From the IMG/VR virus record IMGVR_UViG_3300031857_000140, positions 1 through 64,000 of that record: a DNA stretch of 64,000 nucleotides; one strand, given 5' to 3'. Source of the DNA: a virus. Below, in pieces: positions 33,982 through 46,731 of the stretch; positions within the stretch are counted from its first letter, which is position 1; every line of letters starts with the position of its first letter. A program made the translations under genes and the position numbers. Below the pieces are notes generated by a model. It did no database searches. It was not told where the DNA came from and saw only the letters and a list, made by a program, of their open reading frames with translations.

Positions 33982-34542
33982 CTAAAGAGCCTTTGCCAAT
34001 ACCAGTTCTTCGGTGGTGATGGGATTATATAGCTCGTACTCTTGTATTGCTTCGACAAGCGATGTAGCCCTAACTACCGGAGCTATGTACTTGTCGTTCT
34101 TTTCCATGTAGTACGTGAGCATATAATCCTTATACACTCTGTTCTTTTCTTTGTTGGAGACCATGTGCTTTATTTGAAGTGCGCCATCTCGGAACCTTGC
34201 AGTGTACCACGAATCGTAGTATCCTCCGCTTGGAGTTAAGGATAGTGCGGTGTTGTGTTTTTTGATGCTGTGCAATGTGCTTGGATGGTCTCTGCTAAAG
34301 AGGTCCCCAAGCTCCATTAGTGAAAGTCCGGTGTTCTCTCGAAGGTAGCCCCACACCATGCGGCGTGTCTCTACGGCATTACGCTCGCGCGTCTTATCGT
34401 AGAGCAATGAAGGCGACACCTTGTTGATGCTGCAGAATACGTTTATCACAATGTCAATCAGCGCGTGTACGCTAATTGCCCTTGGTTCATTCTCGTTAGT
34501 ATCGCTCATGGTATGTGAGGTTGTCGTATTCGTTTGGACCAA
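33982..34542 (-). CDS. DnaA domain IV-like DNA-binding protein
   Basis: A 186-aa protein. Residues about 43-97 resemble the C-terminal DNA-binding domain of DnaA: KTRERNAVETRRMVWGYL (basic loop and helix), then LSLMELGDLFSRDHPSTLHS, close to the DnaA signature around RDH-(S)T. No AAA+ ATPase domain is present. It could bind an origin in place of, or in competition with, host DnaA, and sits one base from the gene before the primase-helicase. ATG 34509 is an alternative start that shortens the overlap with the upstream gene from 47 to 14 bases. Confidence 0.7.
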   Translation of the reverse strand: MVQTNTTTSHTMSDTNENEPRAISVHALIDIVINVFCSINKVSPSLLYDKTRERNAVETRRMVWGYLRENTGLSLMELGDLFSRDHPSTLHSIKKHNTALSLTPSGGYYDSWYTARFRDGALQIKHMVSNKEKNRVYKDYMLTYYMEKNDKYIAPVVRATSLVEAIQEYELYNPITTEELVLAKAL

Positions 34543-34960
34543 AGTATACCCACGCTGTCATCGGCGTATCAATCTCATCAATGGTGATGCTTGTCTCTCG
34601 GCGGCGGTACCACAGCGGATGGCCTTCCAAGATGTCAAGGCGGCGAAGCGCATTCTTGTTTACCAAGTATAGCTCTACCTCCACGTTGTAGCCCTTGTTC
34701 TTCTTGTAGAGAAGAAACGGAAGACCACCTTGGCGGATTACGAGCGGGTATTTCTCGGTGGTCTTTCCTTTGCCCACAAAGATGGCATCCTCCAGTAGGA
34801 AGTTGTTACCATATCCGCTTTTCAGCGTGCCGTACACGGCAACAGCTATATCGTTATCTAAAACATTATGCTCCCCCTGCATACCAGTAGGCTTAGATAA
34901 TACTCCAGATAGTCTTTCGTTCCGCTCATTATTGGATTGCTGTCCCATGTTAGTTTCCAT
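34496..34960 (-). CDS. Gamma-glutamylcyclotransferase (GGCT/AIG2-like)
   Basis: A 154-aa protein. Residues 40-50 read AVAVYGTLKSG, the YGTLR-type signature loop of the family, and later EVELYLV and LDILEGHPLWYRR carry the region of the catalytic Glu. Family members release 5-oxoproline from gamma-glutamyl amines. The first 35 residues are probably disordered; internal ATGs exist, so the start is uncertain. This matters because the same leftward block encodes an amidoligase and a class II glutamine amidotransferase, known partners of AIG2-like enzymes in conserved neighbourhoods. It may trim or recycle a gamma-glutamyl product. Confidence 0.75.
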   Translation of the reverse strand: METNMGQQSNNERNERLSGVLSKPTGMQGEHNVLDNDIAVAVYGTLKSGYGNNFLLEDAIFVGKGKTTEKYPLVIRQGGLPFLLYKKNKGYNVEVELYLVNKNALRRLDILEGHPLWYRRRETSITIDEIDTPMTAWVYFGPNEYDNLTYHERY

Positions 34961-35005
34961 TGTTTTGAATTTTCGTCGTAAGTAATTTGGAATGACTGAT
35001 AGAAG

Positions 35006-35197
35006 TCACTCCTGCGTTTTCCCTGCCTCATCTGCCTTCCTATTTATCCATCTGCTGTACATCTTCGCGGCAACAGCTAATCGCTGCGGCGCGAACTTAT
35101 AGGTGCTCTTTAGGCGTGCTTGCGCGATGCGCATGAACTGGTTCATCTGTTCTTCATTCTTCTTAAGGAAGAATCTTTGTAGGTCGTATAGGGTCAT
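35006..35197 (-). CDS. Small basic helical protein
   Basis: A 63-aa protein, MTLYDLQRFFLKKNEEQMNQ and on, helical, Arg/Lys-rich, probably nucleic acid- or protein-binding. It overlaps the upstream nuclease gene by 4 bases (ATGA type). No family recognised. Confidence 0.5.
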   Translation of the reverse strand: MTLYDLQRFFLKKNEEQMNQFMRIAQARLKSTYKFAPQRLAVAAKMYSRWINRKADEAGKTQE

Positions 35198-35592
35198 AGT
35201 AAATCTGTTGCTTTGATTAGAACTCCAAGCGAGGTGTTTTCATCTCCGCCCGGGACATTTTTACGTTCATACTTAGTCCTGCACAAGTCCTTGAGTCGGT
35301 TGGTAGACACAATGACAAGGTATAGGATGTCGTCTTCTTCCATGAATACTTCGTTATCCTTATGTCGGCATCCCTTTTCGGATGCCGCAATAAGCACCCA
35401 GTAGTCTGCCTCGGTCGTGGCTATGCCCGAAGGCTTGCCACGCGATGAGTACTCGATGTAGAAGTTACCAGTGCGATAGGTTGCGAAGTCCAGTTTGACT
35501 TCAACGGTTGTGTTGCTGAGCAGCTTGCCCAAAAGCAGTTCGCCCATTTTTCCGATGCGCAGGTCATGACGGAAATCAGAATTGTACTCCAT
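35194..35592 (-). CDS. PD-(D/E)XK nuclease-like protein
   Basis: A 132-aa protein. RIGKMGELLLGKLL is the first helix with a possible acidic ligand, VEVKLDFATYRTGNFYIEY holds a D..(X)..E-type core, and SRGKPSGIATTEADYWV follows. The 'TGN.YIEY.SRGKPSGI..T.ADYW' phrase is typical of small phage restriction-fold nucleases related to Holliday-type resolvases. Cleavage of branched or damaged DNA is the likely role. It is the first gene after the SSB-like gene's terminator on the leftward strand. Confidence 0.65.
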   Translation of the reverse strand: MEYNSDFRHDLRIGKMGELLLGKLLSNTTVEVKLDFATYRTGNFYIEYSSRGKPSGIATTEADYWVLIAASEKGCRHKDNEVFMEEDDILYLVIVSTNRLKDLCRTKYERKNVPGGDENTSLGVLIKATDLL

Positions 35593-35611
35593 CGCAGAAG
35601 AAAAGATGATA

Positions 35612-35646
35612 GTGAAAAGAAAAGAGGGCGGCTATAAGGCCGCCCC
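35612..35646 (-). terminator. Intrinsic terminator (leftward)
   Basis: On the minus strand GGGCGGC and GCCGCCC (35626-35632 with 35639-35645) form a 7-bp stem with a 6-base loop, followed by a U-rich tract. It lies just after the SSB-like gene, splitting the leftward block. Confidence 0.8.
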
Positions 35647-35653
35647 CTTATAC

Positions 35654-35929
35654 TTAGAACGGCAAGTCGTCGTCGGCACCGGCGGGAGCCTTCGATGCAC
35701 CCGGCTTGGTGCTTGCTGCTTTGGGATTGAACACGCTAATGAAGGCGCTGTCGTCCGTCTTGATAACGAAGTCAAGGTTTACGCTACCACGTGCGGTAAG
35801 GTATTTCTTGAGCTCATCAAGCTGTTCAGACTTGAACGAGATTGAGTACTTGCGTACGCCTGAATCGTAAGACTTAAGCTCGCCTACGTATCCAATATAG
35901 ATGTCTTTCTTTTCCATTTTGATTGACAA
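35654..35929 (-). CDS. SSB-like protein with acidic DDDLPF tail
   Basis: A 91-aa protein (ATG 35917 is an alternative start). A short beta-rich body (DIYIGYVGELKSYDSGVRKYSISF) is followed by a Pro/Ala/Lys linker and the C-terminal tip DDDLPF, which closely copies the bacterial SSB tip DDDIPF that recruits repair and replication partners. The body is shorter than a standard SSB OB fold, about 65 residues. It directly follows the PD-(D/E)XK exonuclease gene with no gap. I infer single-strand binding; the body itself is not a recognisable SSB. Confidence 0.6.
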   Translation of the reverse strand: MSIKMEKKDIYIGYVGELKSYDSGVRKYSISFKSEQLDELKKYLTARGSVNLDFVIKTDDSAFISVFNPKAASTKPGASKAPAGADDDLPF

Positions 35930-36715
35930 TTAAATTTCCCCTTCAAGGTAGAACGAGCTGGAAGGCTTGTCCCTTTCAAAGTGCTCTCGGATGGTGTTAA
36001 TCGCCCGATTGAACTTCTCCTCACCGAAGCGAAGGGTTTGCTCCGATGCTTTGTATACGGCAGGGACATAAGGGAAAGACTTCTCTTGGGTGACCCAGTA
36101 GAAGTCCTCATATCCGAAGACCTTGCAGTAAAGATACGCCTGAATATCGTACCCTAAGTATTTTACGTCAGAACGAAATGCTGACATTGAACGTGTTGTC
36201 TTGGAATCAGAGATGAATCCATTGCCCTTGCAGTCGAGGAATCCCCTAAAAGGGATTCCGTCTACCTCTTCGTTGAACTCAACCTGGTAGTCTCCACTCA
36301 GGTAGATTTCAATGATGCCGCATTCGTTAAGTCGGTCCACCATGTCAATGATTTGCTGGTGGTCATCGAGGCTAAGGATGGTGCGCTCACCAATGGATGC
36401 ATCCATTTCGTTCTTCCACTCTTTGTAGACGCTTGTAGCACGAGGGCTTTTGGCTCCATCAGCCAACAGCTTCTCAATGATGTGCGTATCATCCATTACA
36501 AAGAAGCGTTCATCAAACGCTTCGGGGGTAAACAGCAGGCAGTCGTATGCGCTTCCGAACTGAAGAGCCTCGCTGTCCTTCTTGAGCTTGCCCATCATGT
36601 ACATCTCAAAGAGCGCGATGTCTTGCAGTGCGTACTTGATAGAGCTGTAGGATAGGTATGGCTTCCCAGTGCGCTCAATCATCTGGGTAATCCACTTGTC
36701 TTTCTTCTTAGCCAT
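35930..36715 (-). CDS. PDDEXK exonuclease, RecE/exodeoxyribonuclease VIII-like (DUF3799)
   Basis: A 261-aa protein. YLSYSSIKYALQD at the start and LQFGSAYDCLLFTPEAFDERF match the 'SyS..k...G.a.H.ll..p..F' pattern; the active-site strands follow as GDYQVEFNEEVDGIPFRGFLDCKG and FISDSKTTRSMSAF (D...D-K), then YDIQAYLYC. This fits the PDDEXK-like exonuclease family that works with single-strand annealing proteins. An SSB-like gene lies downstream and an ERF/Rad52-like gene 3 kb upstream, so a RecET-style recombination set is likely. Confidence 0.75.
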   Translation of the reverse strand: MAKKKDKWITQMIERTGKPYLSYSSIKYALQDIALFEMYMMGKLKKDSEALQFGSAYDCLLFTPEAFDERFFVMDDTHIIEKLLADGAKSPRATSVYKEWKNEMDASIGERTILSLDDHQQIIDMVDRLNECGIIEIYLSGDYQVEFNEEVDGIPFRGFLDCKGNGFISDSKTTRSMSAFRSDVKYLGYDIQAYLYCKVFGYEDFYWVTQEKSFPYVPAVYKASEQTLRFGEEKFNRAINTIREHFERDKPSSSFYLEGEI

Positions 36716-36962
36716 TGTGGTATTTGTTGCTTAGTGAATTGTATGCCCCTTGCAGTTGGTCGGCTACCTCTTTTGCCTGCTTGGTTTCTATCATGTCTAC
36801 AACGCTGATTGCTTTCTCAAGTTCTTCCATTGCCGTAACCATAGCTGGCACGTTGTATGAGCTACCGTAGTTAGATAGGATTCGGCCTGCAAGCATTTCA
36901 GCTTCCTTCTTTTTGATATGTGGATGTTCCTTGAAATACTCAAGGTATTCTGATGGTTTCAT
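36708..36962 (-). CDS. Small helical protein
   Basis: An 84-aa helical protein, MKPSEYLEYFKEHPHIKKKE and on, acidic/basic mixed. It overlaps the exonuclease start by 8 bases and the upstream gene by ATGA. Unrecognised. Confidence 0.55.
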   Translation of the reverse strand: MKPSEYLEYFKEHPHIKKKEAEMLAGRILSNYGSSYNVPAMVTAMEELEKAISVVDMIETKQAKEVADQLQGAYNSLSNKYHNG

Positions 36963-37114
36963 TTCAATTTCTCTATGATTAAACTAAGTGCGTTGACATA
37001 TCCTTCCCAGTACTTGGATTCGGTATCTCTACGGCTATACAAACATACGTTTCGATTGTATTGCGCCTTACGATATTGCTCAAGAATATCTTGGGATACG
37101 CTAATCTTTTCCAT
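36959..37114 (-). CDS. Very small protein (51 aa)
   Basis: Reads MEKISVSQDILEQYRKAQYN and on to IIEKLK, with ATG at 37114 and TGA at 36959 overlapping the next ATG. It overlaps the upstream zinc-motif gene by 14 bases. The coupling at both ends supports translation. Function unknown. Confidence 0.5.
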   Translation of the reverse strand: MEKISVSQDILEQYRKAQYNRNVCLYSRRDTESKYWEGYVNALSLIIEKLK

Positions 37115-37433
37115 TCTTCTTTTTGGTTTTTTTGTTGCTTATGCTTTCCATATACTCATCATTGCGAATGCACATATCGCATACCCATTCAAATTCCCAC
37201 ATCTCATCTTCAGGAAACTTTGGTTTTACATCATTCGGAGAGCCGCATCTATCGCATCGAATGCTATTCTCTAAGTCGTATGGAATCCATTCACCTGTAT
37301 CCTTGAAGTCATTTGATACCTCAACGTACCACAGGCCAAAGTCAAAGATGATAGACCACGTTACGTTTGGGTAGCGCAACCACGTTACGCCGATGGCGAA
37401 CTGGTCAACGTATTTTCCTGATGTGATTTTCAT
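37101..37433 (-). CDS. Small protein with zinc-binding CxxC pairs
   Basis: A 110-aa protein. The first half is beta-like and aromatic (FAIGVTWLRYPNVTW), and the second half has CDRCGSPND and WVCDMC, two CxxC knuckles about 30 residues apart that probably bind zinc. The C-terminus is Lys-rich. It overlaps the upstream gene by 4 bases. No family recognised. Confidence 0.55.
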   Translation of the reverse strand: MKITSGKYVDQFAIGVTWLRYPNVTWSIIFDFGLWYVEVSNDFKDTGEWIPYDLENSIRCDRCGSPNDVKPKFPEDEMWEFEWVCDMCIRNDEYMESISNKKTKKKNGKD

Positions 37434-37621
37434 TTCAATTTCTTTTCAAGGATTACTGCTAATGCTATAAGCAATACCCCAATGGTTAGCTGAATAGCGA
37501 TTGGTGACAACACCCACCACCAAGACCAATCGATATGGCCGGTAAGCTTTAGGGCAATGAATAAGAGTGTTAGGAGTCCAGAGAATCCAACGCTTGGGTA
37601 TTTTTTTGGTTTGATTTCCAT
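37430..37621 (-). CDS. Small membrane protein
   Basis: A 63-aa protein (start MEIKPKKYPSVGFSG at 37621, preferred over an upstream in-frame ATG). Two hydrophobic helices (GLLTLLFIALKLTG and VLSPIAIQLTIGVLLIALAVIL) flank HIDWSWWW. This is a widespread phage membrane protein type of unknown role. Confidence 0.6.
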   Translation of the reverse strand: MEIKPKKYPSVGFSGLLTLLFIALKLTGHIDWSWWWVLSPIAIQLTIGVLLIALAVILEKKLK

Positions 37622-37634
37622 TGTTAGGTTTTGT

Positions 37635-37814
37635 TTAGTTATTCGGAAATTCTCCGAGTTGGGTTTCATTTTTTGACAGCTCTACGATAAAGTCAGCGAC
37701 CTTCTCGCACTGCTGTTTGTTTAGGAACTGAACGCTGCTAGAGTGGAACGTATGACGAATCTTATCGTACACCAACTTCTTTATCAGCTCCCACTTTTCT
37801 TCTTCTGTTCTCAT
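37635..37814 (-). CDS. Very small helical protein (59 aa)
   Basis: Reads MRTEEEKWELIKKLVYDKIR and ends FPNN; ATG at 37814, TAA at 37635. Charged helical protein, no family recognised. Its start adjoins one copy of a 20-bp repeat (37816-37835). Confidence 0.5.
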   Translation of the reverse strand: MRTEEEKWELIKKLVYDKIRHTFHSSSVQFLNKQQCEKVADFIVELSKNETQLGEFPNN

Positions 37815-37815
37815 C

Positions 37816-37835
37816 TCTCGTTGGTGTTAAAGGTT
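37816..37835. repeat. 20-bp direct repeat, copy 1
   Basis: TCTCGTTGGTGTTAAAGGTT, identical at 38050-38069. Here it lies between two leftward genes and contains the upstream gene's stop. Confidence 0.8.
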
Positions 37836-38048
37836 ATGTATTTTTTTGAAATTTTTATCCTTTAAGTACTGCTTTCTCTTTTCTACTACTTTAAGTGCTT
37901 CATCGTATGTAGCCACAATAGATTGACGTTTGTTATCATTCCAAGTGAAGTTAGGTAACAAACTATCAATGTATTCCCATTTAAACAAAAAGCATTGCTT
38001 TTCTTGTGCATAAAACCCCTCTATTGTTTCTAATATTCTATACTTCAT
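37827..38048 (-). CDS. Small protein of unknown function
   Basis: A 73-aa protein, MKYRILETIEGFYAQEKQCF and on, basic and aromatic, ending FKKIHNL within the first repeat copy. The gene is more A+T-rich than its neighbours. Its ATG overlaps the preceding TGA. Unrecognised. Confidence 0.55.
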   Translation of the reverse strand: MKYRILETIEGFYAQEKQCFLFKWEYIDSLLPNFTWNDNKRQSIVATYDEALKVVEKRKQYLKDKNFKKIHNL

Positions 38049-38209
38049 TTCTCGTTGGTGTTAAAGGTTTCGTTTAGGAGGTCTGCTAACTCTTGAGCAT
38101 CTTCACCGATAGAGCCAATTATCTTTCCGTCTACAAGTACGTTGTATCCGTATTCATCACAGCATCCGTCTCCGCAGGTGTGCCAGTATGGTTGAAGTTC
38201 TATTTTCAT
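38045..38209 (-). CDS. Very small protein (54 aa)
   Basis: Reads MKIELQPYWHTCGDGCCDEY and on to NTNEK; contains C-x3-CC, perhaps a metal site. ATG at 38209 and TGA at 38045, overlapping genes at both ends (ATGA). Its last codons lie in the second 20-bp repeat copy. Confidence 0.55.
   Translation of the reverse strand: MKIELQPYWHTCGDGCCDEYGYNVLVDGKIIGSIGEDAQELADLLNETFNTNEK
38050..38069. repeat. 20-bp direct repeat, copy 2
   Basis: Same 20 bases as 37816-37835, 234 bp away, here coding for the end of the 54-aa protein. Confidence 0.8.
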
Positions 38210-38508
38210 TTTAATTTACTCTTAATGTGTTCGTCAAAGTCTGAATACTTCAGTCCCCACGTTACACTGAACCACATCATCTCCTTCTCTGCATAGGCTG
38301 CTCGCAACTTAAGTTCTCGCATAAGGTACTTCTTGCCCCACTCCTCAAGTTGTTCGCCCTGAGCAACAGTCATAGTGTACTTCTGGTACCACTTGTCTAC
38401 GCCAACGATGTCGTCGTAGTTCACGTCGTGTCCAGCAATCTCAAACATCTTATTGACGATGTCAATCATTGCCTTCTCCTTCTTTTGTTCTCTCGTTAGT
38501 CGTTTCAT
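38206..38508 (-). CDS. Small helical protein
   Basis: A 100-aa protein, MKRLTREQKKEKAMIDIVNK and on, strongly helical and charged, with WYQKYTMTVAQGEQLEEWGKKYL in the middle. Overlaps neighbours by four bases on both sides. Unrecognised. Confidence 0.55.
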   Translation of the reverse strand: MKRLTREQKKEKAMIDIVNKMFEIAGHDVNYDDIVGVDKWYQKYTMTVAQGEQLEEWGKKYLMRELKLRAAYAEKEMMWFSVTWGLKYSDFDEHIKSKLK

Positions 38509-38765
38509 TGCACATTATGCTCAATTAGAATCTCCCAATAGTCGCCGTGGTCAACGAATCCTGATACGATTCCATCAAGCCCATACAGCGACATATTCGT
38601 GCCGACAGGTATATATGGTCCCCCGCTTGGGTCAACGAATATGATGTTGTCATCGTTGTCCCATCCGAATCGTGTGTACTTGAAGTCTCCCTTCCAGTCA
38701 ATGTTGCCGTTCTCATTCTTTTCAAACGTGAACTCGTCTCCGTATCTGTTTGTGTACTTGCTCAT
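38505..38765 (-). CDS. Small beta-rich protein
   Basis: An 86-aa acidic protein, MSKYTNRYGDEFTFEKNENG and on, beta-rich with Asp/Gly turns. ATGA overlaps at both ends place it in the same translational chain as the HAD phosphatase. Unrecognised. Confidence 0.55.
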   Translation of the reverse strand: MSKYTNRYGDEFTFEKNENGNIDWKGDFKYTRFGWDNDDNIIFVDPSGGPYIPVGTNMSLYGLDGIVSGFVDHGDYWEILIEHNVQ

Positions 38766-39124
38766 TGGAATGTTTGAATTTTAGCATCTACCTCTTTCAG
38801 CTCAGACCAAGTGCCCAAGTATGTGATAGCTCGCACCTTTCGGTTATCAATCCATACGTACTCCTGGCCATCCTTGATACGTGGCTTGTCCATCACCAGT
38901 CCGTGGTACTTGAAGCCATTGTCGCTTAACCACTTCTCAGTAACAGCTTTGTCCTTTGATTCCCTTGCGGTAAAGAACGTAATCACGTTACCCTCGTCGT
39001 ACCATTTGTTGATGATGCCAAGCGCATCAGGATAAGCAGATGCGCTGGCATACAGATGGCTGTCCTCGTTCTTGATGTCGTCGCATATCGTACCATCAAT
39101 GTCTATAAGAAACACTCGTGTCAT
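38762..39124 (-). CDS. HAD-superfamily phosphatase
   Basis: A 120-aa protein. Motif I is FLIDIDGTICDD (nucleophile Asp and the general acid two residues later), motif II is VITFFTAR, and a conserved Lys region with VMDKPR plus WIDNR follow. The cap is minimal, so small soluble substrates (nucleotides, sugar phosphates) or a polynucleotide end are possible. Similar stand-alone HAD enzymes are common in Bacteroidota phages. It overlaps both neighbours by ATGA. Confidence 0.75.
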   Translation of the reverse strand: MTRVFLIDIDGTICDDIKNEDSHLYASASAYPDALGIINKWYDEGNVITFFTARESKDKAVTEKWLSDNGFKYHGLVMDKPRIKDGQEYVWIDNRKVRAITYLGTWSELKEVDAKIQTFQ

Positions 39125-39537
39125 TGCTCAAGGTATTGGTAATGCGTTCCCTCGTTGCCGTTGGTTCCGATGATGTCCATTCGCCGGTTCAGCTCCTCTT
39201 CCATCTCTTCCCACTCTTGGTCGCGAGCGTGAGCGGAGCACGGCGTAATCGCCGGCTCTCGCTCTCCAGCTACGTAGATGTTAGATAGGGGCTGAGAGAC
39301 AAACTCACGGATGCCTCGCTCGATGTTGAGATAGGTCTCCTCATCTTCTCCATCCCGGAAATTTCCATAGACAGAACCAAGCGTAGCCTCAAGCTCTTTT
39401 ACCAATCCCTTGGCGTGGAACTTAGCACCCTTGCTGTATAGTTTACTATGGGTAAACTCATCCATGTACTCCAATCCAATCTGGAGGCAGGCCACCATCT
39501 TGATGATTGCCTCGTTGAGTTGTTCCTCGTTCTTCAT
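39121..39537 (-). CDS. Acidic helical protein of unknown function
   Basis: A 138-aa protein, MKNEEQLNEAIIKMVACLQI and on, with a helical N-terminal half (HAKGLVKELEATLGSVYG) and an acidic Glu-rich C-terminus (DQEWEEMEEELNRRMD). Coupled at both ends. Unrecognised. Confidence 0.55.
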   Translation of the reverse strand: MKNEEQLNEAIIKMVACLQIGLEYMDEFTHSKLYSKGAKFHAKGLVKELEATLGSVYGNFRDGEDEETYLNIERGIREFVSQPLSNIYVAGEREPAITPCSAHARDQEWEEMEEELNRRMDIIGTNGNEGTHYQYLEQ

Positions 39538-39680
39538 TCCCTATCCTTGTTGAAGGTATAGGCAACAGCTAAGAATCCTCCGAGCGCTACGAACGCCAGC
39601 TTTGTTGTTGCATCATCGGCCACCAATAGACCGATAACGGATAGTATTGTACCGAAAAGGTATGTTTTCTTGTTGACCAT
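39534..39680 (-). CDS. Very small membrane protein (48 aa)
   Basis: Reads MVNKKTYLFGTILSVIGLLV and ends TFNKDRE; two short hydrophobic helices. ATG 39680, TGA 39534 overlapping the next ATG. Role unknown; paired with another tiny membrane gene just upstream. Confidence 0.5.
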   Translation of the reverse strand: MVNKKTYLFGTILSVIGLLVADDATTKLAFVALGGFLAVAYTFNKDRE

Positions 39681-39793
39681 TACTCGTCGCTTCTATCTGA
39701 TGGTTCGTCGGAAAAAAGGAGCCAGGCCAAGACGGCCGTGACTCCAATCATTCCGATTGCAAACGCTAACAATCCTAACGATTGTACTAACAT
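39680..39793 (-). CDS. Very small membrane protein (37 aa)
   Basis: Reads MLVQSLGLLAFAIGMIGVTA and ends PSDRSDE; one transmembrane helix and an acidic tail. TAATG overlaps join it to the annealing-protein gene upstream and the 48-aa gene downstream. Confidence 0.5.
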   Translation of the reverse strand: MLVQSLGLLAFAIGMIGVTAVLAWLLFSDEPSDRSDE

Positions 39794-40326
39794 TAGGCCG
39801 TTACGTGTAAGCGAAGTGAGTGTGTCTGTTCCTCGCTGAGGATAGTACCATACTTAGAAATCACTGCATCAAAGCGTTTCTTGCGTTCAGGCGCATTGGC
39901 TCCCGCCTTGATATGCTCCGCAGCCTTCTCTAAGTCGGGGGCCGCCGATGCCTTGGGCGCAGATGGTAGCTCCTGCTTGGCGATAGCAAGCGATACTTCT
40001 TCTGCTGTTGCAATGGATGACTCAACACCGATGCCGAGGAACCCAAGCGCACGACCTACGGCCGACGTCTCGCAGTTCTCCACGTACGATGTCTTGTTAA
40101 TCATTGATGCCGACCGGTCTTCTTGAGCGAAGCCCGTAGCAGCGACAGCTCCCTTGCTGTCGCGTATGGTCGCCTTCATGACGCACATATCTGAGTCTAT
40201 CGCTACCATCTCGGTCTCGATTGAATAGCCCTTGTACTCGGGCAGTTTACGCAGGGCAATAATGCGTTCGTTCACCTGAACGTACTCCTTGCCCTTGATG
40301 TTGGTTGTCTTTAGTTGGTAAGCCAT
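39793..40326 (-). CDS. ERF/Rad52-like single-strand annealing protein
   Basis: A 177-aa protein. The central block, VMKATIRDSKGAVAATGFA followed by TSYVENCETSAVGRALGFLG, is the hallmark of a large group of phage single-strand DNA annealing proteins. The C-terminal third is Ala/Lys-rich and helical (EKAAEHIKAGANAPERKK). With the RecE-like exonuclease (35930), the SSB-like protein and the RusA-like resolvase, it gives a complete phage recombination route. Family-level call is good; the exact subgroup is not certain. Confidence 0.75.
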   Translation of the reverse strand: MAYQLKTTNIKGKEYVQVNERIIALRKLPEYKGYSIETEMVAIDSDMCVMKATIRDSKGAVAATGFAQEDRSASMINKTSYVENCETSAVGRALGFLGIGVESSIATAEEVSLAIAKQELPSAPKASAAPDLEKAAEHIKAGANAPERKKRFDAVISKYGTILSEEQTHSLRLHVTA

Positions 40327-40359
40327 TGATTTGAATTTGAATTAGTTAAAGTTAAGGAA

Positions 40360-40527
40360 TCATTTTGAGTTGGACAAGTTGTACTGCATTACTTTCGCAA
40401 TACCCTTGTCAAGTTCTACACCACAAGAGTAGTGCACAGATTGGATTTTTACCATCCAGTCGAGGTAGGACAATCGCTTCGGCGCTACGCCTTTGTCATT
40501 GCCACTTGAAATCTTGGTTCGAGCCAT
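40360..40527 (-). CDS. Very small protein (55 aa)
   Basis: Reads MARTKISSGNDKGVAPKRLS and ends NLSNSK; ATG 40527, TGA 40360. It overlaps the upstream gene by 43 bases in another frame, which lowers confidence. Function unknown. Confidence 0.4.
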   Translation of the reverse strand: MARTKISSGNDKGVAPKRLSYLDWMVKIQSVHYSCGVELDKGIAKVMQYNLSNSK

Positions 40528-40823
40528 CCTTCTTGTATGTAAATGTTTCTAATGATATGCAGCATCTTCAGGAAGTGGGTTGCTGTTTGCAGCAGGCTCA
40601 GCTCCTTGTGGTGGTCTTTCCCAATGCGCTCATTGAGGAAGTGAATCTGTTCCCATGAGGTAGCACAGATTAGGTTGATGAATGACTTTCGGTTGTAGCG
40701 AGCTGACTCAATCAGCTCGTCGGCCCAGACGTGGTACTCGTTGTCCTTGGGGTTGGAGCCAAGTAACGAGTCCACCATCTGGTCAACCTTAGCATAGCTC
40801 GATTCTAATTTTCCAAATACCAT
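40485..40823 (-). CDS. Helical protein of unknown function
   Basis: A 112-aa protein, MVFGKLESSYAKVDQMVDSL and on, helical throughout (NRKSFINLICATSWEQIHFL). It overlaps the small membrane-protein gene upstream by 19 bases. Unrecognised. Confidence 0.55.
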   Translation of the reverse strand: MVFGKLESSYAKVDQMVDSLLGSNPKDNEYHVWADELIESARYNRKSFINLICATSWEQIHFLNERIGKDHHKELSLLQTATHFLKMLHIIRNIYIQEGWLEPRFQVAMTKA

Positions 40824-40963
40824 AGGAATGCGAAAAATACCCAGGCAAGGAAGGCGATGAACGCCGCCTCTGCAATGATGTACACAAGCAAGCCGATAAT
40901 CTTAGAATGTAGCGAGCCGTTGCCGGAGAACGCCATACGTATTGCAGTCAGGAAACTAACCAT
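40805..40963 (-). CDS. Small membrane protein (52 aa)
   Basis: Start MVSFLTAIRMAFSGNG at 40963, inside the end of the upstream 40-aa gene; an in-frame ATG at 41023 is possible but would overlap it far more. One long hydrophobic region (IIGLLVYIIAEAAFIAFLAW) suggests one or two membrane helices. Confidence 0.5.
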   Translation of the reverse strand: MVSFLTAIRMAFSGNGSLHSKIIGLLVYIIAEAAFIAFLAWVFFAFLWYLEN

Positions 40964-41070
40964 TCGATTGTTCTCATTATTAGGTAAAACAAAGCGTAGT
41001 GAGGAGCGTGGATAACAATCCACGCAAGGGCCTCAATGTAGCGAGGGACTTTCTGTTTCTGTTCGTTCAT
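40948..41070 (-). CDS. Very small protein (40 aa)
   Basis: Reads MNEQKQKVPRYIEALAWIVI and ends RTIEWLVS; ATG 41070, TGA 40948. Amphipathic, possibly membrane-associated. It contains a perfect 8-bp inverted repeat at 41006-41025. Confidence 0.4.
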   Translation of the reverse strand: MNEQKQKVPRYIEALAWIVIHAPHYALFYLIMRTIEWLVS

Positions 41071-41248
41071 GTAGGGTTAGGTATTTTTTGATTTCATCTA
41101 TACTCTCCAAGCATTGCTTGGCTCTGAGGTTTATGCCCGGTATGTGCATAAGAGAGCTGTAGTCGTCCACGAAATGGAGGTTGGTCTCTATGCGAGCCAA
41201 CTCCATCTCTATGGCGCTTTGCCAGGTGATTGATTCCCTAACGCTCAT
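41033..41248 (-). CDS. Small helical protein
   Basis: A 71-aa acidic helical protein, MSVRESITWQSAIEMELARI and on. Overlaps both neighbours (11 bases upstream, 38 downstream). Unrecognised. Confidence 0.5.
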   Translation of the reverse strand: MSVRESITWQSAIEMELARIETNLHFVDDYSSLMHIPGINLRAKQCLESIDEIKKYLTLHERTETESPSLH

Positions 41249-41735
41249 CGCTTATGATTTCAGACACCATGAAGTCAGGCTTGTCCTCATGCTCGTTAAT
41301 CGCATACTCGTCAAGCGGCGCTATCCACGAAGTCTTAGCAAGCTCAACAGCTTCCTGCGCGCTCTGCGCATACACGTTGTACACTCGCCGCATCGTATAC
41401 CTAATCTCGGTGTCAGAGGTAACCTCGTACCGCTTTATCGAGCTTGCCGGAACCGGATGTTGCATTGGCTCCTTCTTTTCCTCGCCTTGGAAGATTACGC
41501 TCGTAAACGACTCATTCTTCACGCGTGGGTCGTAGGCAATCTCTACGAGCTTGGTGCCGTCGGGCACCTTGCGCATATCAAGACTGCTTGCTGTTATCTC
41601 CCGCGCACGCTTCTCGTTGTCGGCGTAGCAGTGAAAGACAGAGAAGGTTGGTTCTCCTTCTTGGGGTCGGCGGTCAAAGCCCTTGGCTCCCTTTCCACGG
41701 ATGGGATTGGGGATGGTAATTACGAATTGTTTCAT
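41238..41735 (-). CDS. Protein of unknown function behind a strong leftward promoter
   Basis: A 165-aa protein starting MKQFVITIPNPIRGKGAKGF (ATG 41735, with an aattaaaATG leader typical of the host group; 41768 is an alternative). It is a mixed alpha/beta protein with a helical segment, VYNVYAQSAQEAVELAKTSWI, of the kind found in small repeat-like modules. The promoter at 41766-41796 marks it as the first gene of a leftward unit. No family recognised. Confidence 0.55.
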   Translation of the reverse strand: MKQFVITIPNPIRGKGAKGFDRRPQEGEPTFSVFHCYADNEKRAREITASSLDMRKVPDGTKLVEIAYDPRVKNESFTSVIFQGEEKKEPMQHPVPASSIKRYEVTSDTEIRYTMRRVYNVYAQSAQEAVELAKTSWIAPLDEYAINEHEDKPDFMVSEIISDER

Positions 41736-41765
41736 TTTAATTGATGTTTTTGAATTTGATTTGTA

Positions 41766-41796
41766 CAAAGGTTAATAAGAAAATTGAATTGTGCAA
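41766..41796 (-). promoter_or_regulatory. Leftward promoter with TTGCACAATTCAA -33 region
   Basis: Minus strand: TTGCACAATTCAA (41796-41784), a 19-base gap from TTG to the -7-like TAACCTTTG (41774-41766). The same -33 block and spacing occur at 52413-52442. Confidence 0.7.
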
Positions 41797-41807
41797 CTAT
41801 TTGCGTA

Positions 41808-41978
41808 CTAATTGAAGCGTTCTCGCCCTAACATATTGACACTCAGCGATATTTCGTTGATTTTTTCTTCAAGATAATCTCGCATTTCTTCGTCATCAAA
41901 GACGTATTTGCCGTTATCGTCGATGTAATACATCAGTGGGACAGCGATTTCGGTAGGAAGATTTCGGTTATTGCTCAT
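41808..41978 (-). CDS. Very small acidic protein (56 aa)
   Basis: Reads MSNNRNLPTEIAVPLMYYID and ends GRERFN; ATG 41978, TAG 41808; ATGA overlap with the upstream gene. Helical, acidic. Unrecognised. Confidence 0.5.
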   Translation of the reverse strand: MSNNRNLPTEIAVPLMYYIDDNGKYVFDDEEMRDYLEEKINEISLSVNMLGRERFN

Positions 41979-42169
41979 GGTTGTTGGTTTTTATGTTGTT
42001 TCCATTCGAGGTAGAAGCCTATGGCGACCACCACATTCATACCCAACGACGCTATGATTTCATGAACGTCTTGGTAAACATTGGTCGATAGATGCACGTG
42101 CCCCACCATCCAAAATGGTATGGACAAGTTTCCTGCTATCCATCGTATCGTGAAGTCAATGAATCTCAT
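41975..42169 (-). CDS. Small membrane protein (64 aa)
   Basis: Reads MRFIDFTIRWIAGNLSIPFW and ends HKNQQP; two hydrophobic segments. Its start overlaps the GH73 gene's stop by 4 bases. A role beside a membrane-anchored hydrolase is possible. Confidence 0.5.
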   Translation of the reverse strand: MRFIDFTIRWIAGNLSIPFWMVGHVHLSTNVYQDVHEIIASLGMNVVVAIGFYLEWKQHKNQQP

Positions 42170-42696
42170 TGTCTTGACATAATCTTACGTAGCTTGGCCA
42201 CGTAGTTAGGGTCTTCAGCGTAGTACCCATTGAGCAGTGATAGGAACTGCTCGTTGGTTCTGCAATGCTTGGCGTAGGTAGCGCACCACATCGCATAGTC
42301 AAGGACACTATCTTCCCACGAATCGTAGTAGGCGTGTCCGTGTTGGCTTCCACGCGCAAGGTTGATGCGCGTCTTGGCCTCCTTCATCCCAAAGAGATTG
42401 TTGTTCTCTACGAAGATGTTAGACCTAAAGGTGTTGGTCTCCAGCTTGGCCTGAGCAACAGCTACATCAGCAAAGCGCACGTTGAGTTCCTTCAGCTTTG
42501 AGCGTAGGCGCTCTTCGCTGAACTGGTTGCCCATCCCACGCATTTGGATGATGCGCTCGTACTCTGTCGCATCGACCACGTTGATGGAAAGAAAGATAAA
42601 GGCAGCAGCCACAAAGGCTGCGCCTTTGATGATAGTGGTTCCAAAAGGAAGCTTACGATAAGTAAGCGTATCTGGATTGAAGGTGTATATACCCAT
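42166..42696 (-). CDS. Membrane-anchored GH73-type glucosaminidase (FlgJ/LytF-like)
   Basis: A 176-aa protein. An N-terminal hydrophobic helix (GAAFVAAAFIFLSINVV, about residues 25-41) anchors it. The catalytic domain follows: FADVAVAQAKLETNTFRS with the expected catalytic Glu, then NNLFGMK, HAYYDSWEDSVLDYAMW and GYYAEDPNYVAKLRKIM, all matching GH73 N-acetylglucosaminidases that cut peptidoglycan glycan strands. It lies in the leftward (probably early/middle) block, not with the holin, and may serve a purpose other than final lysis. It overlaps the next gene by ATGA. Confidence 0.75.
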   Translation of the reverse strand: MGIYTFNPDTLTYRKLPFGTTIIKGAAFVAAAFIFLSINVVDATEYERIIQMRGMGNQFSEERLRSKLKELNVRFADVAVAQAKLETNTFRSNIFVENNNLFGMKEAKTRINLARGSQHGHAYYDSWEDSVLDYAMWCATYAKHCRTNEQFLSLLNGYYAEDPNYVAKLRKIMSRQ

Positions 42697-42698
42697 GG

Positions 42699-43271
42699 CT
42701 AATAGAAGATTTCCCTGCGGTCATAGTCATCGTAGCCATTCCCTTCGCTGTCCACCCATTGCTCTTTCTTTGGGTCATACTCTACAACCTTCTCATCGAC
42801 CATGTAGGAGAACGTACCCTCGACTATGCCATCCTCTCTGGTGTGCATAAGAGCGAACTCCTCTGATTCTTCCTCGGCTTCGACGATGAATTCAATGTCG
42901 GGGAACATCTCAAACATCTTCTCCATTACCGGGATGGGATACGACCAAGCGGTAGAGAACATCACGCGCACAAGCGTATCGCTCTCGCGTTCAACAATGG
43001 TGTGGCAAGCGTTCCACTTGGTGCCCCAATTCTCAACAGACCAATCGTACCAGTTGGGTATGTTGTTGGCCTTGCAATGCTCCTTCTCCTCCTTGCCGAT
43101 GTTACCTCGGAAGATGTTGTCGGGCATAGGTATGATTGACTCGAAGTCAAACGATAGGCGCTCGTCTTCACGCTCTGCGCTGTTGTTCACCTTGGTTGTC
43201 TTCGCAAGGAAGGCATCAAGGCTCTCTTTGGAGCCTGATGCCCTGATGATGTTATACGTCCAGTTCGGCAT
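42699..43271 (-). CDS. Api92/YubB-like ferredoxin-fold protein (DUF1281-like)
   Basis: A 190-aa acidic protein. MPNWTYNIIRASGS at the start, SIIPMPDNI, WYDWSVENWGTKWNA and FSTAWSYPIPVMEKM match the pattern of the Api92-like/DUF1281 group, found widely in phages and plasmids. No biochemical role is established. The C-terminus is very acidic and aromatic (DDYDRREIFY). Confidence 0.7.
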   Translation of the reverse strand: MPNWTYNIIRASGSKESLDAFLAKTTKVNNSAEREDERLSFDFESIIPMPDNIFRGNIGKEEKEHCKANNIPNWYDWSVENWGTKWNACHTIVERESDTLVRVMFSTAWSYPIPVMEKMFEMFPDIEFIVEAEEESEEFALMHTREDGIVEGTFSYMVDEKVVEYDPKKEQWVDSEGNGYDDYDRREIFY

Positions 43272-43275
43272 AGTT

Positions 43276-43977
43276 TCAGTGTTTTAAGGTTATGACTTTA
43301 TTTGGTTTTGGTTGGATTAGTTTGCAATGTTCTGGGAAGTTGTATCGTTGGGTTGGAGATACGTATACTGCCGAGCCATGCTCTCGCCACATGGTTCTCA
43401 CCACGCGCTTCTTAACACCCTTGAGGCTACCATTGGTAATCATTACTATGTCGCCAATCATAGGTTGTCTGCTTGCCTGTTCGATGGGTGTATTGTTAAT
43501 GAACAGCCAATCTCGGTTCCAGCCCCAGGGTTCATTTGACAAATGGTAGTAGTCCGACACTACTTCATCTGAATTCATTACAATAAGAGGAGATGTCATC
43601 TGCCTTTCGACCGATGCTATCATGCTGTCGTTGTGGTTTGCTCTGTCCCTAAACATGAACATACCAGCCCTCATTTCATTGAAGCTCGTGCATAGCACAC
43701 GTGTTCCGTTAGGTATGTTTGCGGGCGCAGGCATAAGCCATTCTGTATAGAAACCTAATCCCGAAGCAGTCCTATCAAACGGAGACCATATTTTTACACA
43801 GCCATGCCTTGTGAGGGATTCAATGACGTACTCGTTACCGAATCTGTTGTTAGACCAGTTCGACCTTGGACACATATCCGACAGCATAACTCTGTCGCCC
43901 ACACGTGGGTTTCTTGGGTCGTAGTTAAATGAGAAGCTAATGCTCTCTTGTACAACATCTATTTCTGGCATAATCAA
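43276..43977 (-). CDS. Protein with two SH3/KOW-like segments
   Basis: A 233-aa protein. Two segments with the pattern 'RVGDRVML.....N..YVIESL' (residues about 25-60) and 'MIGDIVMITNGSLKGVKKRVVRT' (about 170-195) look like KOW/SH3-type small beta barrels. A similar segment opens the amidoligase (46568), so these neighbours may share an adaptor module. Start could be the second Met (PEIDVVQ). Confidence 0.5.
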   Translation of the reverse strand: MIMPEIDVVQESISFSFNYDPRNPRVGDRVMLSDMCPRSNWSNNRFGNEYVIESLTRHGCVKIWSPFDRTASGLGFYTEWLMPAPANIPNGTRVLCTSFNEMRAGMFMFRDRANHNDSMIASVERQMTSPLIVMNSDEVVSDYYHLSNEPWGWNRDWLFINNTPIEQASRQPMIGDIVMITNGSLKGVKKRVVRTMWREHGSAVYVSPTQRYNFPEHCKLIQPKPNKVITLKH

Positions 43978-43989
43978 TTAGGTTTTAGG

Positions 43990-44898
43990 TTATTGTTTGT
44001 CAGCAGCCTTGAAGCTGTTGTTCCATTCCATTTCTTCGAGCTTGTCAATCACCGCATCGGCAGATGCAGGGATGTAGGTGTAGCAGTCAAGGCATTCGCT
44101 GTTGAAGTTGACCTTGGCGTGCGGGTTTTGACACCCGCCGCACTTGAAGGTCTTGTCGATGAACGGCGCATCGTAGTCGTAGTCGTCTACCGAGTACGAT
44201 TCGTAGGGGTACATGATGCGCGTGTCCTCTACCTGGCGCCAGTATTCGTCGTCGTACTTGGTGCCGTACGCGCCGGTCGACGTGCCCTTGCTTGGTAATG
44301 TCGCCGTGCCGTAGCCACCCCATGAAGACAATGGCTTGTACGAGTAGCTCTTGTTGGAGTACCAGTTGCCGTCGACCCATTCGCCAAGTCCCTCGTTGAA
44401 GATGCGGTAGTCACCGCTGTCGTCAAGGAAGATGAGCTTGTTGTCGCTCTCAATGAATCGGTAGATGCTTTCTTCAATGAATGGGTTGTCGAGCGTAGCA
44501 ACGCTCGGCACTAACATAGTAGAGAGCAGGTCTGCAAACTCTGCGGTGTCGGAGCGCTCACGTGTGCCGAGGCCGAAGATGATGCCGTTGTGTACGAAGC
44601 CAACAGAATCGGACACGAAGAACGGATGCAAATACTCTGGCGTTAGGCCGTGCGTAGCGATGCGGAAATGGATGAGCATGGGCAGGTCGCCATACTTACC
44701 ATGCACCTCGACATAGCGCTTGTAGAACTTCTCAAAGTTCTTGGTGCTGTTGGCGAGGTCTTGGTTGGGGAACTTCTCTGCGACGAGCTTGCCGTCGGCA
44801 ACATAGAGTATGCCGGCGCCGTCGTCGTTGTTGTTCCATGAGTTAGACAGCTTGGTCTTGGCAATACGCTTGCCTGAATTAAGGATTGCAATACACAT
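43990..44898 (-). CDS. Class II glutamine amidotransferase-like Ntn hydrolase
   Basis: A 302-aa protein with MCIAIL at the start: Cys2 would be the N-terminal nucleophile after Met removal. NNNDDGAGILYV, LIHFRIATHG and GFVHNGIIFG are the standard GAT-II blocks for glutamine binding and ammonia release. Residues about 175-300 form a Tyr/Ser/Asp-rich linker and a zinc-ribbon-like CGGC...CLDC segment. There is no fused synthetase. The amidoligase gene lies 50 bases upstream in the same direction, so this enzyme may hydrolyse glutamine or an amide-linked product made or used by that ligase. Confidence 0.8.
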   Translation of the reverse strand: MCIAILNSGKRIAKTKLSNSWNNNDDGAGILYVADGKLVAEKFPNQDLANSTKNFEKFYKRYVEVHGKYGDLPMLIHFRIATHGLTPEYLHPFFVSDSVGFVHNGIIFGLGTRERSDTAEFADLLSTMLVPSVATLDNPFIEESIYRFIESDNKLIFLDDSGDYRIFNEGLGEWVDGNWYSNKSYSYKPLSSWGGYGTATLPSKGTSTGAYGTKYDDEYWRQVEDTRIMYPYESYSVDDYDYDAPFIDKTFKCGGCQNPHAKVNFNSECLDCYTYIPASADAVIDKLEEMEWNNSFKAADKQ

Positions 44899-44948
44899 AA
44901 GTAAATAGGATTTAGATTAAACAATAGGATAGGAAAGGCATAGACAAA

Positions 44949-46568
44949 CTATGCCTTGGATGCAAGGAACTTGAGCGTCTTGTCGCTCACCTTGACAACG
45001 CGGTCGGTGTAATCTTGTCCGTCGCCGAGGTTACGGATAAGGTCGTAGCCAACATCAGCCCATTCCTTGATGTCCTCGATGCGGATGGAGATGCGCTTGC
45101 TCACACGCTTGAGCGTGCTTACGAAGAACTCCATGAGTACACCTTGCCCGGTCTTGCTGAACTGCAATGAATCGTACATGGCATCGGCAAACTGCGAGTA
45201 CCAGCACGCAATGCGCAACAGCTTGACCTCATCGTACTGCTTGCGCAGGTGCTTGTGCAGTTCGCTGTTGCGGTTGAGCATCATCCGCTGCACATCTGTT
45301 GCCGTAGCATTAGGGTACTTGACCATGATACGGAATAGGTCGCGCCGCCATAGCAACGTAGCTACGTCATGCACACGAGATACGATACGGAACTCAATGT
45401 AGTCGTGCTTGATGTTGAACGACACGTAACGCTCGTCGCGGGCAAGGTACTTGTCTGCCTTGGCGTAGGCACGCGACCAACGAGAGGTCGCACGCTTGCG
45501 GTACAAGGCAAGGAACAGCGGCATGAACGATGCGTACTGCTTGAACAAGTCGCTACCCGAAGTACCCACCTTGCCGAAGTTGATGTGCCCACCGCATGAG
45601 GTAGTGGAGTCGGCGTTGATGTGGTCTTTGAGCAGTTCGCTGCCGGCAATGTCCGTGTCAAGTCGGTCGGACAAGAGGTCGTAGGTAGGTGAGACAAGTT
45701 CGTACCCGGTGTCGTCGTTGAGCGAGCCATCGCGCTCGCGTGACCATCCGGTAGCATCGACCTCGTACAATTCGTATCGGTCAAGTATTTTGCCGTCTTC
45801 CTTCTCTACCTCAAAGCCAATGGTAAAGAGCGTACCTGCCGTGGTGTAGGTGTTGCGCGGTCCGCTGTGGTAGTCGTGGCACGCGCCCTCGCCCGGTTCC
45901 TCGGTAGAGTACACGTCCGGGCCTTCGTGCCAGAATATGCTGTTGCCTACGTCGCTCTCGTGGTAGTATTCTTGTACATCGTCGGCGTACACTGCGTTGT
46001 CAAGCCAAATGTTTTGGCCGTCGTAGCGACCGCCACCGCAGTACACGTACTCATCCTCGTGGTCAGCGGAAAAGTATAGGTCGCCCTCAATCTCTACGAT
46101 TAGGTCGCCGTACTCGCTGTCAAGTACGACAACATCTTGCCGTTCAATACGGCATTCTGTTACCTCGTCACGCAGGGCATACTCGCCCTCGTGTTCGCTT
46201 GGTGCTGTTAGCACAACACACTGCGACAGCGGATGTTCTTCGCCGTCGTAGGTGGTTACCATTTCTACATCTTCTTCTTGCATGGTTTCTTGGGGTTGGT
46301 TGGTTGGGGTTACTTGTTCTATTGTTAATCCTGTGTCAGCTTGAGCAACAAGCTCAAGCCATTCAGGTACGTACACGTGGGACTCGTTGTCAATGTCAAG
46401 TTTGTAGCGCGTACGCTGTCCGACCGGGTAGTGGTCGTATTCAACTACGCCAACAATTCGCCCGAAGTATCTATTCAGAGCCCACATTTGCGGGGTAATT
46501 GAACATGGCCCTTCGTAGGTAGCATGGAGGTTTAGGCGAACAAGGTCGCCGACATTTAAGGTACTCAT
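44949..46568 (-). CDS. Amidoligase (GS-like COOH-NH2 ligase, Amidoligase_2) with N-terminal SH3-like part
   Basis: A 539-aa protein (start MSTLNVGDLVRLNL at 46568; an in-frame ATG at 46679 precedes a hairpin leader). Residues 1-80 form an SH3/KOW-like barrel; residues about 90-230 are acidic and beta-rich. The amidoligase domain begins near residue 247 with FTIGFEVEKE, then WSRERDGSLNDDTGYELVSP and TSCGGHINFGKVG, the metal- and ATP-binding signatures of this family, and EFRIVSR downstream. Family members are predicted to form an amide bond between a carboxylate and an amine, and occur with GAT-II enzymes and AIG2-like cyclotransferases; both are in this genome. Substrate unknown. Confidence 0.8.
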   Translation of the reverse strand: MSTLNVGDLVRLNLHATYEGPCSITPQMWALNRYFGRIVGVVEYDHYPVGQRTRYKLDIDNESHVYVPEWLELVAQADTGLTIEQVTPTNQPQETMQEEDVEMVTTYDGEEHPLSQCVVLTAPSEHEGEYALRDEVTECRIERQDVVVLDSEYGDLIVEIEGDLYFSADHEDEYVYCGGGRYDGQNIWLDNAVYADDVQEYYHESDVGNSIFWHEGPDVYSTEEPGEGACHDYHSGPRNTYTTAGTLFTIGFEVEKEDGKILDRYELYEVDATGWSRERDGSLNDDTGYELVSPTYDLLSDRLDTDIAGSELLKDHINADSTTSCGGHINFGKVGTSGSDLFKQYASFMPLFLALYRKRATSRWSRAYAKADKYLARDERYVSFNIKHDYIEFRIVSRVHDVATLLWRRDLFRIMVKYPNATATDVQRMMLNRNSELHKHLRKQYDEVKLLRIACWYSQFADAMYDSLQFSKTGQGVLMEFFVSTLKRVSKRISIRIEDIKEWADVGYDLIRNLGDGQDYTDRVVKVSDKTLKFLASKA

Positions 46569-46617
46569 CACATCAAGTTTTTTGCTCACGTATTGCACCT
46601 CGTGGGCATGGGTGTTC

Positions 46618-46641: not shown

Positions 46642-46731
46642 TTAGGCTTTGGGGGTTGCTTGGTCACGAACCAACGCACTCACTCATAAAAACGAACACA
46701 GAAAAGTTTTGAGCAGTGGGCAACCCTGACG

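Follow-up and report, generated by a model that had tools for sequence, protein, structure and literature searches.

The window, a stretch of viral DNA of 64,000 nucleotides, encodes on one strand an amidoligase, a class II glutamine amidotransferase (GAT) and a gamma-glutamyl(amine) cyclotransferase (GGCT). We propose, with a probability of about 0.5, that these proteins constitute a single enzyme module, a reduced form of the phage amidoligase/GAT/GGCT cassette, which would make and break a terminal gamma-glutamyl amide. All three open reading frames were present where the first-pass annotation had placed them, on the minus strand. The features relevant to this proposal are as follows.

44949 to 46679, minus strand: amidoligase, Amidoligase_2-like with a GS/GCS fold (family, profile-profile, model and alignment evidence)
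43990 to 44898, minus strand: stand-alone class II glutamine amidotransferase (Ntn) with Cys2 (family profile, Foldseek, alignment)
42166 to 42696, minus strand: GH73 glucosaminidase, located 1.3 kb downstream of the GAT gene and having a single hydrophobic segment at its N terminus
34496 to 34960, minus strand: GGCT of the AIG2/GGACT type (Pfam, PDB relatives, alignment)
33982 to 34542, minus strand: DnaA-domain-IV-like protein directly after the GGCT gene, listed for context; the true start of this gene is probably internal to the frame

Three enzymes with intact active-site residues

The amidoligase frame runs from 44949 to 46679 with a GTG start or to 46568 with an ATG start, and the two starts are equally possible. 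In the GTG numbering, the protein comprises an SH3-like N-terminal barrel (residues ~37 to 111), a beta-rich middle region and a catalytic domain (~280 to 480). Searched as a single sequence, the window amidoligase had no match in Pfam and did not reach the PF12224 cut-off. Since single-sequence Pfam results were weak for both the ligase and the GAT, families, folds and profile-profile comparisons were used instead. Amidoligase_2 was matched by 8 of 45 members of the ligase family at E ≤ 0.01 (best, 2.2e-5), and hhalign of this family with six annotated phage Amidoligase_2 proteins, five of which were checked against PF12224 and all scored above its cut-off, yielded a probability of 98.6% and an E value of 9.2e-16. 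Residues 280 to 458 of the AlphaFold model were superimposed on glutamine synthetase with a Z score of 9.5 (rmsd 3.7, 164 residues aligned) and the model on YbdK with a Z score of 8.3; the top Foldseek matches also included GMAS, PafA and Dop along with YbdK. Thus, the amidoligase assignment of the first-pass annotation was borne out at the levels of profile and fold. Residues E290/E292, D317, S319, E327, CGGH365, R396, E429, R431 and R445 are invariant, and the ExE, DxS...E, GGH, R and ExR motifs that they form are invariant or interrupted by one gap across 84 distinct sequences. These data indicated a fold of the glutamine-synthetase/gamma-glutamyl-ligase type with an intact metal/ATP site, and the enzyme is predicted to catalyze ATP-dependent amide formation. 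When genome contigs were searched with the ligase family profile, no bacterial relatives were found.

The GAT gene sits 50 bp downstream of the amidoligase, and its product starts with Met-Cys2, just as had been noted before, and carries a C-terminal CxxC...CxxC ribbon. Alone, the window protein scored below the cut-off of 27 against Pfam GATase_6 (E 0.04, 14.4 bits). Among members of its family, GATase_6 was matched by 16/36 and GATase_4 by 10/36; the family profile matched GlmS in the PDB (5.6e-5), and Foldseek assigned the fold to the GlmS/PurF glutaminase domain (GlmS, 1.5e-7). The Cys directly follows Met1 in 76 of 77 distinct sequences, with one gap, while the glutamine-binding Arg (R79), the oxyanion Asn-Gly (N104-G105) and the Asp (D117) are kept in all 77. 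Judged from the alignment and the model, the GAT retains both the thiol glutaminase site and a pocket for the gamma-glutamyl group.

The GGCT was recognized by the Pfam GGACT model at 5.9e-21 (75.7 bits, cut-off 22.8), as expected for the AIG2-like enzyme previously proposed, and among solved structures it is closest to GGACT of mouse and human (3.8e-20). Y43-G44-T45-L46 and Glu112 are invariant in 66 distinct sequences, and E112 aligns to the catalytic Glu of GGACT (Glu82), the catalytic residues of which are listed in PMC2954230. The cyclotransferase site is therefore intact, and the enzyme is predicted to release 5-oxoproline from gamma-glutamyl amines. In all, active-site residues were invariant or nearly so among the distinct relatives of each enzyme (84 ligases, 77 GATs and 66 GGCTs), and each of the three proteins matched its family at the profile or fold level.

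Linkage of the three genes and fusion of GAT with GGCT

Ligase and GAT genes are adjacent in essentially all relatives. They occur together in 82 distinct loci, in 75 of which the ligase comes first; the six exceptions are contigs in which no GAT was seen beside the ligase, and these mostly end at a contig edge. Gaps between the ligase and a stand-alone GAT are mostly 9 to 67 bp, with an overlap in three loci and intervening genes in some, and no ligase-GAT fusion was seen among the relatives.

In the window, 9 kb with many genes separates the GAT gene from the GGCT gene downstream of it; the earlier description of one phage block was generous for GGCT. This distance is a point against a module. 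In a search started from GGCT, however, GAT and GGCT shared one open frame in 34 of 45 non-redundant viral clusters and a separate GAT was found in 7, fusion being the commonest arrangement among the window's relatives. Two complete named phage genomes, C75C1 (checked with Pfam) and MW202828, carry the fusion. Furthermore, ligase and GAT were both present in 30/30 GGCT clusters in which 9.4 kb or more of sequence was available upstream, and the unrelated phages UFV-P2, Melvirus and MW202615 also have all three genes. The co-occurrence anticipated for related phages was thus found, extending even to gene fusion, although the counts are not independent, since relatives share ancestry.

Because GAT is fused to GGCT in most clusters and the ligase accompanies them in every cluster with long upstream sequence, we reasoned that the window GGCT is functionally linked to the other two, and the fusion points to GAT and GGCT acting in one pathway. 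That three genes of unrelated function are together through common phage ancestry alone is very improbable. The 9-kb distance and the replication block common to all close relatives would fit such an explanation, but it is disfavoured by the fusions and by co-occurrence in phages having different replication modules.

GGCT was absent from seven ligase-GAT records of ~50 kb or more, including five that have a second copy or a fragment of the ligase, and it was not found when sought in records of the ligase-GAT-ligase2 arrangement. Ligase and GAT would therefore form the core, with GGCT as an addition. One candidate, a second GAT in locus L027 with a GGCT-like C-terminal part (2e-26 to the MW202828 fusion), was rejected, as it lacks the catalytic Glu by eye.

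The neighborhood was consistent with the rest of the first-pass annotation, in that the GH73 and GH19 wall hydrolases (the latter an endolysin) and the glycosyltransferase are all real. The same replication block (DnaA-like, exonuclease, Erf-like, primase/helicase) is found downstream of the GAT-GGCT fusions in relatives. GH73 is conserved beside ligase-GAT in 9/30 lineages and abuts GAT in two of them, and it may be an accessory part of the module that hints at the envelope; the suggested envelope link is partially supported in this way, but GH73 linkage was found in 0/29 lineages of the fused type.

Proposed function and alternative explanations

In the proposed module, the ligase would convert a carboxylate to an acyl phosphate and join it to an amine, the simplest product being a gamma-glutamyl amide. 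The GAT would handle glutamine or a gamma-glutamyl amide at Cys2, either passing ammonia to the ligase or hydrolyzing the bond, and the GGCT would free the amine with formation of 5-oxoproline. The earlier suggestion, that an amide or gamma-glutamyl link is formed, exchanged and removed by the three enzymes, is compatible with this predicted chemistry. Simultaneous synthesis and removal looks futile unless substrate or time separates them, which is a point against the module. As substrate, an amine (a metabolite, a wall precursor side chain or a peptide) bearing a terminal gamma-glutamyl tag is probable. Such a tag is likelier than the internal gamma-D-Glu of an intact stem peptide, because GAT and GGCT both bind a gamma-glutamyl group that is terminal and has its alpha-amine and carboxylate free. 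As enzymes of the GGCT class require the alpha-amine of the gamma-glutamyl residue to be free, an intact peptidoglycan stem would not be the direct substrate of GGCT, and the stem-peptide target once suggested is doubtful for this enzyme. The most plausible target would be the envelope, modified at an early stage of infection.

A different role for the same enzymes, glutamine-dependent amidation, is a tentative possibility. Ammonia from the GAT would be used by the amidoligase to amidate a wall-precursor carboxylate, comparable to MurT/GatD, which have other folds, and GGCT would clear gamma-glutamyl by-products. The close, mostly ligase-first adjacency with overlapping genes in three loci, the complete glutaminase pocket and the position of GH73 in some lineages are in favor of it, as is the peptidoglycan modification predicted in print (PMC5498523, PMC11945000). 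It leaves unexplained, however, that GAT is fused to GGCT and not to the ligase, and GH73 linkage is missing from the fused-type lineages.

Rather doubtful is dedicated gamma-glutamyl tagging, in which the GS-fold ligase would write a gamma-glutamyl amide on a molecule of phage or host, to be erased during infection by a bifunctional GAT-GGCT. One in-frame UGA interrupts 3 of the 34 single-frame GAT-GGCT clusters, the UGA site having a conserved context of 36 nt, and within the tagging explanation the eraser of some phages is possibly made by programmed UGA readthrough. Full recoding of UGA to Trp in these phages is unlikely, given 21 to 35 Trp codons TGG in homolog-supported genes, and is also disfavoured by TGA terminating other genes in the same phages. 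A search of the 58.9-kb record for suppressor tRNAs was negative.

GGCT and GAT-like enzymes break down cellular gamma-glutamyl compounds, and the genes could recycle such compounds to provide the infected cell with amino acids and nitrogen, a form of auxiliary nitrogen/glutathione metabolism that has been proposed for the Planctomycetes phage ZRK32. This phage has the same enzyme set and is reported to promote growth with nitrate or ammonium (PMC10945688), but the growth promotion was not attributed to these genes, and a glutathione synthase-like ATP-grasp was not found in the window or the relatives scanned. We consider this explanation unlikely. Less likely still is that phage nucleic acid, or a protein of phage or host, is modified with a gamma-glutamyl or amide group for anti-restriction or tagging, with GGCT and GAT as erasers. 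In favor are the position of the module within the early/replication region and the fold that the ligase shares with the protein-tag enzymes PafA and Dop, but a nucleotide hypermodification enzyme was not recognized among the scanned genes, and the SH3-like barrel points only weakly to polymer binding.

The enzyme set recurs in Pseudomonas, Pseudoalteromonas and Methylophilales phages, in Clostridia-type prophages and in many uncultured podovirus-like phages, and its product has so far been a prediction in the phage literature. From the chemistry of GAT and GGCT, the range of substrates would shrink to those with a gamma-glutamyl group at a terminus, making the prediction of peptidoglycan modification directly testable. 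The reduced variant, one ligase plus one GAT-GGCT fusion protein, is small enough for reconstitution in the tube.

Comparison with known systems

In butirosin biosynthesis, the ligase BtrJ adds a gamma-glutamyl group and the GGCT BtrG takes it off. The window enzymes would share this logic of a ligase that writes and a GGCT that removes, as an analogy only, since BtrJ is an ATP-grasp enzyme whereas the phage ligase is GS-like. Compared with Amidoligase_2 (PF12224), the window ligase has the GS-like fold and the same order of catalytic motifs but is divergent, without a Pfam match of its own. The GAT shares with the GlmS/PurF glutaminase domains and with stand-alone GATase_4 amidases of the EgtC/DUG3 type the fold and the pocket of Cys2, Arg, Asn-Gly and Asp, and differs in the missing synthase domain, the CxxC ribbon and the fusion to GGCT in relatives. 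The GGCT has the YGTL loop and the catalytic Glu, Tyr and Arg of GGACT/AIG2 but in the phages is mostly fused behind a class II GAT.

The enzyme combination has been described in phages before (PMC5498523, PMC11945000, PMC3890496). Phage reports since at least 2013 group amidoligase, GAT, GGCT, ATP-grasp and COOH-NH2 ligase into a cassette with "peptidoglycan modification" as its predicted role, and in Pseudoalteromonas phage HP1 transcription of the cassette begins immediately upon infection (PMC7082346). We searched 28 records, including the window, for the last two enzymes. Neither the ATP-grasp ligase nor the phiEco32-type COOH-NH2 ligase was found in any of them, while three positive controls were matched in each search; the ATP-grasp query consisted of three rows, and a very divergent form might escape it. 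These alignment queries superseded genome-level searches with PF12224 and PF14395, which gave no match and had no positive control. The set itself is thus not new, and by gene content it appears to be a reduced variant of the cassette of RIO-1/PSA-HP1, phiEco32, LUZ24-like phages, UFV-P2 and Melvirus. Amidoligase_2, class II GAT and GGCT are shared, as is an early-region position next to genes for replication. The window differs from the cassette in having neither ATP-grasp nor COOH-NH2 ligase, most of its relatives fuse GAT and GGCT, and the ligase of the window type carries an extra N-terminal region.

Identity of the three enzymes

The window covers most of a 66,016-bp IMG/VR virus record. 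An amidoligase, a class II glutamine amidotransferase (GAT) and a gamma-glutamyl cyclotransferase (GGCT), which the first-pass annotation had placed on one strand, were all found on the minus strand.

44949-46679, minus strand: amidoligase (ATG start at 46568 equally possible)
43990-44898, minus strand: GAT
34496-34960, minus strand: GGCT

The GGCT assignment is unambiguous (Pfam GGACT, 5.9e-21, single-sequence search). In the Pfam search of window proteins, GAT and amidoligase fell below the cut-offs as single sequences, so both families were assembled from viral relatives. Conserved columns of the GAT family include Cys2, HFRxATHG, HNG and SDT; its members match GATase_6 and GATase_4 in Pfam, and GlmS in the PDB is matched by both the family profile and the predicted fold. 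Amidoligase_2 was matched by 8 of 45 ligase family members in Pfam, and profile-profile comparison with annotated Amidoligase_2 proteins gave 98.6% (E 9.2e-16). Residues 280-480 of the ligase AlphaFold model (mean pLDDT 83) match glutamine synthetases (GS) and YbdK, and the motifs follow one another as in GS/GCS ligases (ExE, DxS..E, GGH, R, ExR); their residues would map one by one onto GS ligands. Catalytic residues are kept practically without exception in 84 ligases, 77 GATs and 66 GGCTs. Together, these results bear out the three families originally named.

Ahead of its catalytic domain, at residues ~140-280 (window 45840-46260; also in relatives L026 and L006), the ligase has hairpins that are acidic, aromatic and repeat-like, such as YCESDGEYYH in L026. 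An SH3-like barrel is modelled for residues 37-111.

Linkage and fusion in related phages

Co-occurrence in related phages, the check suggested in the first-pass annotation, was seen from both sides: ligase and GAT share 82 distinct loci, and ligase is present in 30/30 GGCT clusters (best 80 of 414 stretches) with at least 9.4 kb upstream. The ligase precedes GAT in 75 of the 82. Stand-alone GATs mostly lie 9-67 bp from the ligase, with an overlap in three loci and at least one intervening gene in some. GAT was not seen in six unpaired ligase loci, where most contigs end beside the ligase.

Searching from the GGCT side matched 414 viral stretches, of which the best 80 were kept and grouped at 85% identity into 45 clusters. 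Among these, GAT and GGCT form one ORF in 31 and a frame broken by one TGA in three more; in seven clusters GAT is a gene of its own, and the last four consist of short fragments. Two named phages, C75C1 and MW202828, likewise carry the fusion; no description of the fusion was found in the literature searched, of which coverage was incomplete. The window's clade carries split genes. A CxxC...CxxC ribbon ends most GATs, split and fused alike, suggesting a single architecture that either lost GGCT or received it as an insertion. MW202828.1, a podovirus with ligase and fusion, also has annotated GroEL and 10-kDa chaperonin subunits (L057:5880-7770).

GGCT was found in 16/44 ligase records, many of them short, and was missing from seven of ~50 kb or more; of these seven, four carry another complete ligase and a fifth carries part of one. 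Two ligase copies flank GAT in L022, L023, L026, L027, L030, L031 and L034, and the records among them that were searched for GGCT yielded none. Behind the L027 array lies a second GAT (L027:13372-14454) with a GGCT-like C-terminal half, in which, by eye, the catalytic Glu is lost and LDRFHAG replaces LDxLEGHP.

In-frame TGA codons

Nine assemblies from three sub-lineages carry an in-frame TGA in the GAT-GGCT gene.

Viral loci with TGA-bearing GAT-GGCT genes
L085:490-1578, L086:9539-10627, L115:1952-3082
L118:9539-10669, L121:9575-10696, L123:2887-4008
Further records: L146-L147, L149-L154

The TGA is codon 118, exactly where other fused homologs have a conserved Trp. The following ~33 nt do not differ among the three sub-lineages compared, and a fourth sequence departs from them by a single synonymous change; outside them, up to half of codons differ at third positions, and protein-level constraint persists downstream. 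In these phages Trp is usually TGG, TGA terminates other genes and the code is otherwise standard; no suppressor tRNA was found in a 58.9-kb record. The pattern looks like candidate programmed UGA readthrough.

Genomic surroundings and probable substrate

The enzyme genes share their strand with replication functions.

31900-33684, same strand: primase/helicase
33982-34542, same strand: DnaA-domain-IV-like protein
35930-36715, same strand: exonuclease
42166-42696, early strand: GH73 glucosaminidase, 1.3 kb behind GAT
50249-50863: GH19 endolysin, separate from GH73

One hydrophobic N-terminal segment, seen by eye, predicts a membrane-anchored GH73. ORFs at 48786-49223 and 49648-50175, resembling HNH-type and GIY-YIG-type endonucleases by eye, are possibly homing endonucleases.

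Comparison of sequences and models established fold, active sites and linkage; reactions and substrate are what we infer. The window GGCT is closest to gamma-glutamylamine cyclotransferase, whose catalytic residues are given in PMC2954230. The ligase would join a carboxyl phosphate and an amine into an amide, GAT would cleave glutamine or a gamma-glutamyl amide, and GGCT would release the amine and 5-oxoproline. A glutamine-dependent amidation complex, the main rival, is a less likely account of the set than the reading favoured below. In general enzymology, GAT and GGCT pockets alike bind gamma-glutamyl groups whose alpha-amine is free, and gamma-D-Glu in the intact stem peptide is N-acylated. 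The stem peptide, one target first proposed, is therefore unlikely as direct substrate, and we favour, at a probability of about 0.5, a module whose enzymes have a terminal gamma-glutamyl amide as common substrate or product. The proposed link to the envelope keeps partial support: GAT is followed by a GH73 homolog at no more than 5.5 kb in 9/30 ligase lineages, in two of which they abut (L044 and L048; -1 and 3 bp), but in 0/29 fused-type lineages.

Comparison with known phage cassettes

Amidoligase, GAT, GGCT, ATP-grasp and COOH-NH2 ligase together constitute a predicted peptidoglycan modification cassette of phages (PMC5498523, PMC11945000, PMC3890496, PMC10580990, PMC11253131), for which PMC5498523 cites Hardies 2013. 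Such predicted genes are expressed immediately in phage HP1 (PMC7082346); for phage ZRK32 the reading given is nitrogen metabolism (PMC10945688). Unlike the full cassette, the window and 27 relatives lack ATP-grasp and COOH-NH2 ligase, both detected in the control phages UFV-P2, Melvirus and MW202615. There is strong evidence that the parts work together. The enzyme module is real, conserved and of a known kind and, given the absence of these two genes, is a reduced variant of the cassette rather than a full member.
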